Source: a virus
Virus record (IMG/VR): IMGVR_UViG_3300020156_000019
Coordinates: 1 to 21,791 of that record
Direction: 5' to 3' (one strand)
DNA length: 21,791 bases
The notes under the pieces are model-generated. The model was not told where the DNA came from. It saw only the letters and a program-made list of their open reading frames with translations, and searched no databases. The number at the start of each line of letters is the position of its first letter. The first letter of the stretch is position 1. The translations under genes were made by a program, and so were the position numbers. Positions 2,860 through 4,317 of the stretch are shown in pieces.

Positions 2860-3216
2860 TCATTTCTTCCTTAGCTTCTTCTTGGCTGCTTCAACTTCAG
2901 CCTTGATACTGCTCACACTTTTCTTTCCTGTTGCTTGCACTAGGTTTGGATTCAGCCTCCTGTATTCAGCCATCAGCGCAGCTTGTCTTTCATCTGCCTG
3001 GCGTCGGTGCTCAATAACCTCTGGTAAGGCAAGGTATTCTTTAGTCAGTTCCTCTCGTCGTGCTCTTGTGTCGCCTTTGTCGTGGTGAATCAGACGGTGC
3101 ATCTCTTGCTTGTTTCGCCTTGTATTGGGGGTATCAGGGTAGGGTGCAGAAAGTTCACATCCACATCCAGCCTTAGGTTGTTCGGTCTTACCCCTTAGTA
3201 GTCTCATCAGATTCAT
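2860..3216 (-). CDS. Hypothetical charged protein (118 aa)
   Basis: The gene starts at ATG 3216 with AAGG six bases upstream and overlaps the zinc-finger gene upstream by 29 bp. The N-terminal part has a CGC cysteine pair (residues 18-20) and a short proline-rich stretch. The rest is highly charged and helical (ARREELTKEYLALPEVIEHR and onward), ending in the lysine-rich tail KKKLRKK. I recognise no domain. The charged C-terminus could bind nucleic acid, but nothing more specific can be said. Confidence 0.7.
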   Translation of the reverse strand: MNLMRLLRGKTEQPKAGCGCELSAPYPDTPNTRRNKQEMHRLIHHDKGDTRARREELTKEYLALPEVIEHRRQADERQAALMAEYRRLNPNLVQATGKKSVSSIKAEVEAAKKKLRKK

Positions 3217-3439
3217 GGGAGCCTTCTGCTTTCTTCTTGTAGTACCAGCGCATTACCGCCTCACGATTCTTGGCTGGATCTCGTTTGTAATTTTTGGCTT
3301 GCTTTTTTTGACAGTCTCGGCAGTCAGGTCGATAGCCGTTGAATCCTTGCTTGTTCTTGTTGAATTCATTCCAGAGCTTGTACTTGTCACACTTGCTACA
3401 CACTCGTCCTGTCTCGTCTTTGTACGGTGGTGTAATCAC
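3188..3439 (-). CDS. Small zinc-ribbon protein, like the N-terminus of phage HNH/endonuclease VII-type proteins
   Basis: The product is 83 aa and starts at GTG 3439, overlapping the DUF2637-like stop by four bases (GTGA). Two CxxC pairs, C14-C17 and C40-C43, with the spacer KLWNEFNKNKQGFNGYRP, match the zinc-ribbon module that often sits before an HNH or recombination endonuclease VII domain in phage proteins. Here the nuclease part is absent. After the second CxxC there is only a lysine/arginine-rich helix. It may be a stand-alone DNA-binding protein or a shortened nuclease relative. I see no frameshift that would restore a longer reading frame. Confidence 0.75.
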   Translation of the reverse strand: MITPPYKDETGRVCSKCDKYKLWNEFNKNKQGFNGYRPDCRDCQKKQAKNYKRDPAKNREAVMRWYYKKKAEGSHESDETTKG

Positions 3440-3942
3440 TTCCCTGCCTTCCCTGTATCGCTGTCTTGCAGTACTCGTCTCATAGTCGTGCGAACAGTTC
3501 CGCGAGACACGTTGCCCTTAACTTGTTTCAAGGCAGTCTCGGCTGTGTCGTAGTCGCGAATACCTTGAGACACAAGTACTTCGATGATTTCTTTGATGGT
3601 CATGGTCTCGTTAATGTCTCGTAGCATTTGAGCTGCGAATACTCCGTCAATCTCATTAGCGAGACTGCTTGTCTCATTATTGGTCTCGTCTGAGACTGGC
3701 TCTGTCTCGCTGTGTTGCTGTGCTGTCTCGTCTTGTAGCGGCAGGTCAATTTCTGTGTCTTGCTGTATCGCTACAGGATTCAAACTGTGTCGCAACTCTT
3801 GGATACGTGCTTCTGCTGTCTCGTATGAGAGAGACACAAAGTCTCGTTGAATCTTCTCTACGCGAGACTTGTCTCCGTACTTGCGAGACTTAATGAAGAC
3901 CGGTTTGCGTGGAAGGATCTCTCCTCGTGCCCTACGTGTCTC
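3313..3942. repeat. Dense array of GAGAC/GTCTC (mostly CGAGAC/GTCTCG) motifs
   Basis: Between 3477 and 3942 I count 19 copies of the pentamer GTCTC or its complement GAGAC. Twelve are extended to GTCTCG/CGAGAC, at 3503, 3536, 3605, 3616, 3660, 3683, 3704, 3725, 3818, 3841, 3863 and 3884. Two more GTCTCG copies lie near 3313 and 3413. About one pentamer would be expected by chance in this length. Both orientations occur, and the motif falls in all three reading frames of the gene it sits in (read as ET, RD and SR), so protein sequence alone does not explain it. Confidence 0.75.
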
Positions 3943-4317
3943 ACGGATAGTGTGTTTGATGTAGAACTCAAACAGCAGCGCTGCTACAAATGGGAAGATG
4001 ATTCCTACGAGTCCTCCTGCATAGCCGCCTTCTACATATCCGTGATAGAAGTTCACAGCCAAGCTGATAAGGATGATGAACCAGGTGGCTAACTGAGCAG
4101 CCTTGGTGTTATCTCCAAGTTTGGCTAACACGGTAGTGTGATGCCCTAGCCAGATACCGGCTGCATCAATTACTACGGCTGCGCCTAATGCAATCCAAGT
4201 CACGACACCAACAGAACTAGTCAATACTTCAAAGACTGCATTTCCGGATACCAGCAAGCCATAACCTACGATGACCCAGAATCCAATATGAGCTACTGCT
4301 TTAATTGCTGTGTTCAT
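3436..4317 (-). CDS. DUF2637-like membrane protein with C-terminal winged-helix-like domain
   Basis: The protein is 293 aa. Four membrane segments lie at about residues 11-34, 37-57, 75-91 and 100-120. The pattern of an aspartate in TM2 (VVIDAAGIWLG), ISLAVNFYHG in TM3 and a proline in TM4 followed by a basic stretch (KHTIRETRRARG) matches the actinobacterial DUF2637 family. That family is common on actinomycete plasmids and integrative elements near transfer or spread (spd) genes. A hydrophilic linker rich in ET dipeptides follows. A helical segment at about 230-285 (TIKEIIEVLVSQG to GTVRTTMRRVLQ) looks like a winged helix. The start has GGGAGG five bases upstream and overlaps the 46-aa gene by four bases. 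The linker and C-terminal DNA carries the GAGAC array. A membrane-anchored DNA-binding role fits, but is inference. Confidence 0.75.
   Translation of the reverse strand: MNTAIKAVAHIGFWVIVGYGLLVSGNAVFEVLTSSVGVVTWIALGAAVVIDAAGIWLGHHTTVLAKLGDNTKAAQLATWFIILISLAVNFYHGYVEGGYAGGLVGIIFPFVAALLFEFYIKHTIRETRRARGEILPRKPVFIKSRKYGDKSRVEKIQRDFVSLSYETAEARIQELRHSLNPVAIQQDTEIDLPLQDETAQQHSETEPVSDETNNETSSLANEIDGVFAAQMLRDINETMTIKEIIEVLVSQGIRDYDTAETALKQVKGNVSRGTVRTTMRRVLQDSDTGKAGK

Follow-up and report, generated by a model that had tools for sequence, protein, structure and literature searches.

Arrays of element-specific hexamers in DUF2637-type membrane protein genes of Streptomyces phages, satellites and plasmids: a possible class of self-addressed genome anchors

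Results

The DUF2637-type gene and its array of sites

This study concerned a 21,791-base virus record (hereafter the window, meaning the whole stretch of DNA analysed), a genome fragment of a siphophage in which an HK97-type capsid, a portal and an integrase were recognised among the encoded proteins. It carries a gene for a DUF2637-type membrane protein, a small ORF just downstream, and a dense array of GAGAC/GTCTC sites that extends from the one into the other (Table 1).

Table 1. Features of the array-bearing locus, in window coordinates.
Feature	Position	Strand	Remarks
Array, 21 GAGAC/GTCTC sites	3314..3942	both	consensus CGAGAC[A/T]
Array site starts, first half	3314, 3411, 3477, 3504, 3536, 3567, 3605, 3616, 3661, 3671, 3683		
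Array site starts, second half	3692, 3704, 3725, 3818, 3831, 3841, 3864, 3871, 3885, 3938		
DUF2637-type membrane protein gene, 293 aa, proposed array reader	3436..4317	-	phrog_10376, Streptomyces phage homologues
Helical bundle, residues 3-130, read as membrane part	3928..4311	-	AlphaFold2, pLDDT mostly 80-90
Disordered linker, residues 179-218, many array sites	3664..3783	-	pLDDT <50 for 179-223
C-terminal helical domain, HTH-like, residues 219-288, proposed DNA-binding	3454..3663	-	pLDDT 85-93
Last helix, residues 272-288 (..RGTVRTTMRR..), proposed recognition helix	3454..3504	-	co-varies with motif between phages
83-aa downstream ORF, HNH/endonuclease VII-like, holds sites 3314 and 3411	3188..3439	-	phrog_2255, E 7e-8

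The protein matches phrog_10376, which comprises phage DUF2637-type proteins, over its full length (E 9.4e-19, residues 8-284 of 293 on 13-296 of 303), and tblastn found homologues in Streptomyces phages over 95% of its length. Its match to Pfam DUF2637 (PF10935) is weak (E 6e-4, 20.2 bits vs a cut-off of 22.8), the cut-off being passed by the homologues of Coruscant, Karimac, Kromp and pNBC01353, and NCBIfam profiles gave no name for DUF2637 proteins. An AlphaFold2 model built with 21 sequences has long helices within a hydrophobic stretch at residues 3-130 and another helix at residues 150-178, followed by the linker and by a C-terminal domain with a conserved G-x-x-D...G...T...R pattern. 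Neither the whole model nor the C-terminal domain could be matched reliably to a known fold: against solved structures the domain had nothing significant (best Foldseek match E 2.6; a StbA domain, second in the list at E 3.1 and probability 0.20, is only a lead), and a PDB sequence search returned one, non-significant match. Since the domain is without a significant structural match, HTH is here a reading of its helix pattern and conservation, and both the HTH fold and the membrane topology are to be taken as predictions.

The pentamer GTCTC/GAGAC occurs 59 times in the whole window, with 21 copies at 3314-3942, where there are also 14 of the 19 copies of the hexamer GTCTCG/CGAGAC. At the density of the remaining window, 1.2 pentamers and 0.15 hexamers would be expected per 651 bp. 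The coding part of the array (3477-3942, 466 bp), inside the DUF2637-type gene, has 19 pentamers and 12 hexamers, and two further hexamers (3314 and 3411) lie just downstream in the next ORF. These are exactly the counts given for the coding part in a preliminary description of this DNA, which also reported sites on both strands and in three codon registers. Read as GAGAC, seven sites are on the plus strand and 14 on the minus strand, and all registers are used. No other hexamer in the window is as clustered as CGAGAC, which reaches 13 copies in 500 bp (the next unrelated hexamer, 7). The consensus is C-GAGAC-[A/T], with C at position -1 in 14 of 21 sites and A (11) or T (7) at position +1. 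Spacing is irregular, and a search for helical phasing of the sites found none. The membrane part is almost without sites; the array lies mainly beneath the linker and C-terminal domain and then continues past the gene end.

Codon choice was controlled for by 5,000 within-gene synonymous shuffles and by 5,000 draws from the phage's own codon usage. The 19 GTCTC pentamers of the gene compare with 8.5 (maximum 15) in the shuffles and 6.5 (maximum 15) in the draws, and the 12 GTCTCG hexamers with 4.0 (maximum 10) and 2.8 (maximum 9), respectively. The observed counts were reached by 0 of 5,000 in each control, so that the codon-shuffle test, one of two by which the preliminary description had proposed that its claim should stand or fall, left it standing. 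The array is confirmed as real and independent of codon choice.

Arrays with other words in homologous genes

Relatives were reached by tblastn in Streptomyces phages and by scans seeded from those matches; they were picked by protein similarity and not by their arrays, the sole exception being L006, which came to attention by its array. When the window gene was used directly in protein scans, no close relative was found in viral or bacterial contigs and none in plasmids, and among the capsid-based relatives of the window phage, DUF2637 was mostly absent from their fragments. Arrays as dense as that of the window were found in Streptomyces phages, satellite phages, prophages and plasmids, the words across homologues being GTGACA, GAGACA, ACGACA, CGGACA, TGCGAA, CGCTCA and CGCCAG. 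The arrays are, then, a property of a gene family in which the word changes between members. GTGACA is found 12-20 times, vs 3-7 in shuffles, in the genes of Coruscant, Paradiddles, Mildred21, MulchMansion, Karimac, Tomas and Wofford, and CGGACA about 10-23 times, vs 1-7, in Kromp and its prophage relatives, one Kromp relative (L062) having AGGACA. ACGACA is used by the satellite phage Mulchroom and two relatives, TGCGAA by the satellite MiniFlayer (16 vs 2.9 in shuffles), and GAGACA/AGACAA, which resembles the window word, by a phage of 34% GC (L050). DUF2637-type genes of Streptomyces plasmids have CGCTCA (32 vs 6.3), CGTTCC (25 vs 8.3) or GAGACC (31 vs 16), and a Streptomyces genomic gene of this type, with a C-terminus of another HTH-like kind (L103 609-1214), has CGTGAA (33 vs 8.1). 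Two loci with CGAAC (L025 and L026) were marginal in the codon test (P about 0.03). When all 184 ORFs of at least 200 aa in 27 loci were given a hexamer score in the same way, the top 16 were all DUF2637 genes; the 19 DUF2637 genes had a median of 8.2, vs a 95th percentile of 4.8 and a maximum of 6.4 for the 165 others.

In two phages of the Loccivirinae, Muntaha and BillNye, the gene has retained its membrane part and a related C-terminus but holds no array, and a search of the entire Muntaha genome found no displaced array. Because Muntaha keeps the protein without an array, a rule that the domain implies an array has exceptions. The Hiyaa DUF2637-type gene also has no array, nor do the majority of DUF2637 genes on Streptomyces chromosomes. 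In Samisti12 (L035 4001-5722), a gene for an HNH endonuclease separates a short 5' piece of the DUF2637 gene from its main part, and the array part is intact. The window gene combines an array in its 3' half that exceeds shuffles with the C-terminal pattern, and is placed in a proposed group of DUF2637-HTH genes with gene-borne arrays, in which binding of the hexamer by the domain is suggested by co-variation of the two.

Co-variation of the word with the C-terminal helix

Loci that share the C-terminal domain have arrays with a GACA core, and vary in the two preceding bases. With residues of the last helix numbered from the conserved Thr (0), helices of the form NT[IV]xKAVSR go with GTGACA plus NGGACA; NT[IV]xV(A/S)LSR with GTGACA, NGGACA being wholly absent; STLNTCIQR with ACGACA/GCGACA; [DS]T[VI]xRTxxR with CGGACA; and GT[VI]xxTMxR, as in the window and L050, with GAGACA/AAGACA. 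Where residue 3 is Arg (Kromp family), almost every site has G as the second base of NNGACA; with Lys3 (12 loci), this base is G in 9-21 and T in 16-24 sites per array, and with Val3 (five phages) it is T in 29-32 and G in 0 sites. This would amount to recognition governed by little more than one residue (Arg to G, Lys to G or T, Val to T). The arrays themselves predict a binding word for each element.

Motif distance is correlated with helix distance (r 0.82; partial r 0.53 after removing membrane-domain distance), and motif similarity also with membrane-domain similarity (r 0.77). A single evolutionary event may underlie the Lys/Val contrast, so the tracking of the helix by the motif is strong but does not amount to independent replication. 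Natural domain swaps are found in two Streptomyces loci (L081 and L082), where the membrane domain is kept, the C-terminus is unrelated and there is no array, and in L006, which has a GntR-like C-terminus and a CGCCAG array.

Site turnover and second arrays

In 11 relatives, the membrane part is 82-96% and the linker 42-73% identical to that of Mildred21 (the reference). Each gene has 10-20 sites, and these occupy 63 positions overall, only two of which are common to at least nine relatives. Karimac has a second GTGACA cluster in a non-coding gap at about 78.9-79.05 kb, 64 kb from the first (L074 2912-3047), and at the corresponding place there is a second GTGACA array in Coruscant (L075 3045-3508) and MulchMansion (77.1-77.4 kb). 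These second arrays are largely intergenic, beside a gene for a small DUF3307 protein and about 2 kb from an FtsK-like gene; that of Coruscant also extends through the DUF3307 gene. In positions 1-85,442 of the Karimac record there is no GTGACA cluster besides these two, and a paired-site search of the whole record found no third. Codon shuffles, the turnover of sites at a kept count, the intergenic array of Karimac and the different motifs of relatives together provide strong support for selection on the DNA, as the preliminary description had supposed, and for what would be a binding array.

Dense intergenic repeats were also seen in capsid relatives of the window phage. One of these, with no DUF2637 in its fragment, has an ATGACA/TGACAA array in the interval that separates a primase-like gene from the terminase genes (L004 4540-4900). 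Another (L005 2960-3180) has 14 CTGACC(CC) sites, perhaps a packaging site, in the gap before a small-terminase-like HTH gene; the DUF2637 gene of this relative (L025) has a weaker CGAAC array and is directly followed by an FtsK-like gene.

Satellites, their helper and the likely binder

The satellite Mulchroom has ACGACA and no GTGACA pair, its helper MulchMansion has GTGACA and no CGACA run, and the satellite MiniFlayer has TGCGAA and neither of the other two. The DUF2637-type genes concerned (satellites, L027 11331-12287 and L083 3914-4858; helper, L028 3992-4873) thus carry mutually different words, which suggests orthogonal addresses for helper and satellites in one cell. Because satellite and helper use different words, the reader must be encoded by the element itself, which rules out a translocase of the host or the helper as the common reader. 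DUF2637 is the gene shared by all of these elements, and the most probable binder is its own product, a membrane protein, acting through the C-terminal HTH-like domain; judging from the sequence comparisons, this domain very probably binds the array.

Discussion

The preliminary description had proposed a binding array for a translocase, a partition protein or a replication initiator. The array as such has stood up to analysis; the suggested binders have given way to the gene's own product, and of the suggested functions partition is the one preferred here, an origin of replication being less likely. Binding of the array by the DUF2637-type protein is strongly implied by the sequence patterns, and it is rather likely that the protein attaches to the sites within the gene encoding it and anchors the genome that carries them at the membrane, or moves that genome there. 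The N-terminal helices would hold the protein in the cell membrane, the disordered linker would let it reach into the cytoplasm, and the small C-terminal HTH-like domain would bind many copies of an element-specific hexamer, CGAGAC[A/T] in the window and NNGACA, with other bases at NN, in relatives. A protein that is held in the membrane, where it is probably oligomeric, could together with many close sites form a stable anchor, in effect a centromere bound to the membrane and private to a single phage, satellite or plasmid genome. In a mycelial host, the genome could in this way be placed at the membrane or septum for segregation, for spread between compartments, or for replication. Anchoring is the simplest function to propose because a membrane protein would have many specific sites on its own genome.

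Parts of this arrangement are familiar from other systems. SpdB2 is an oligomeric, DNA-binding integral membrane protein that helps the spread and stability of Streptomyces plasmids and is described as binding DNA without sequence specificity (PMC4170104); it shows that membrane DNA-binding proteins serve mobile elements in mycelia. Compared by description only, the protein proposed here resembles SpdB2 and the Spd proteins of pSVH1, pIJ101 and SLP2 in that a mobile element of a mycelial actinomycete encodes it, that it is predicted to lie in the membrane and that it probably binds DNA, but differs in that this binding would be specific for an element-specific word; moreover, no site array inside the spdB2 gene is described (PMC4170104), whereas here the array is in the gene. 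The TRS of clt, read by TraB, are also short repeated words that act as an element-specific address and are used at the membrane or septum (PMC5133688, PMC4170104). However, TRS are 8-bp repeats (e.g., GACCCGGA) read by an FtsK-like ATPase, whereas the word here is of 6-7 bp (CGAGAC[A/T]), occurs in both orientations, and lies inside a membrane-protein gene with no ATPase.

In StbA/stbDRs of plasmid R388, a protein and a site array beside its gene govern segregation and position (PMC3098194), and the present arrays are similar in being sites at the gene of a putative DNA-binding protein. Unlike the array here, the stbDRs are regular 9-bp direct repeats around the promoter region. To our knowledge, StbA is not known as a membrane protein. 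The parS/ParB and lambda O/ori systems likewise have the sites of a DNA-binding protein within or beside the gene encoding it, but the reader proposed here would be membrane-borne and its word changes from element to element. Neither ParA/ParB nor an initiator was seen among the ten window proteins scanned, the window being a fragment.

Among the alternatives, autoregulation, in which a membrane-bound transcription factor of the ToxR/CadC sort would repress or roadblock its own gene through internal sites, is marginally the most probable. Sites within and directly after the reader's own gene would suit such a role, as would the second Karimac array, which, read from sequence, lies between an apparent terminator and a promoter-like stretch. 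It is nevertheless unlikely, given that 10-35 sites over 400-600 bp of coding sequence far exceed the needs of repression and that the sites avoid the 5' end and promoter side of the gene.

An origin of replication, with iterons bound by an initiator and the gene as their convenient seat, has a precedent in lambda, where ori lies inside gene O and its repeats are bound by the gene's product. In Karimac (NC_048724.1), the cumulative GC skew has its minimum at 15-17.5 kb, beside the array at 14.5-15.4 kb, but this turn is close to a gene-strand switch, and the helicase, primase and polymerase genes are 40 kb away. Karimac and Coruscant each carry two arrays, a membrane protein is proposed as reader and not a known initiator, and satellites, which need their helper in order to replicate (PMC10690885), use words other than the helper's; an origin is accordingly quite improbable.

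A loading or orientation sequence for an FtsK/TraB-like DNA translocase, akin to the TRS of clt or to KOPS, was the parallel first drawn for these repeats. Streptomyces TraB recognises short repeats, such as that of pSVH1 given above, and acts jointly with Spd proteins (PMC5133688); in BE-cluster phages, a gene for an FtsK-like protein lies near the second array, and in one relative (L025) an FtsK-like gene directly follows the DUF2637 gene. A translocase needs polarity, however, and site orientations are mixed, nearly half and half in several phages; satellites in which no FtsK gene is annotated carry arrays too, in words that differ from the helper's; the motif follows the DUF2637 C-terminal helix; and among the ten main window proteins scanned, in what is a fragment, none is FtsK-like. 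This explanation is very unlikely.

That the word is a by-product of the protein, spelled by chance by the codons of a low-complexity linker rich in Glu-Thr, Arg-Asp or Val-Thr, is hardly credible and was rejected: shuffles alone do raise the counts (to 4 CGAGAC in the window and as many as 7 GTGACA in Karimac), but those observed are two- to fourfold greater and were not reached in 5,000 shuffles, and the sites occur on both strands and in three registers, continue into neighbouring and non-coding DNA, and change position while their count is kept. A reading as restriction sites was also set aside, as the word varies by element and follows the HTH domain.

To return to the membrane anchor, it is about an even chance that such genes form a class of self-addressed anchors across Streptomyces phages, satellite phages, prophages and plasmids, each with a private six-letter word. 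The gene itself, through its disordered linker, would serve as the multi-site address, and reader and address would be inherited as one piece and diverge together. If true, co-resident genomes such as those of helper and satellite would be anchored or moved independently, and the arrays would represent naturally occurring DNA addresses that are orthogonal to one another. Streptomyces and its mobile elements commonly encode DUF2637 proteins, a family without an assigned function that a single paper in the literature searched mentions by name. For the subset with the C-terminal domain, the arrays offer a testable function, sequence-specific binding of their own gene, and with it a way into the question of how multigenomic hyphae position and transmit the genomes of phages, satellites and plasmids.
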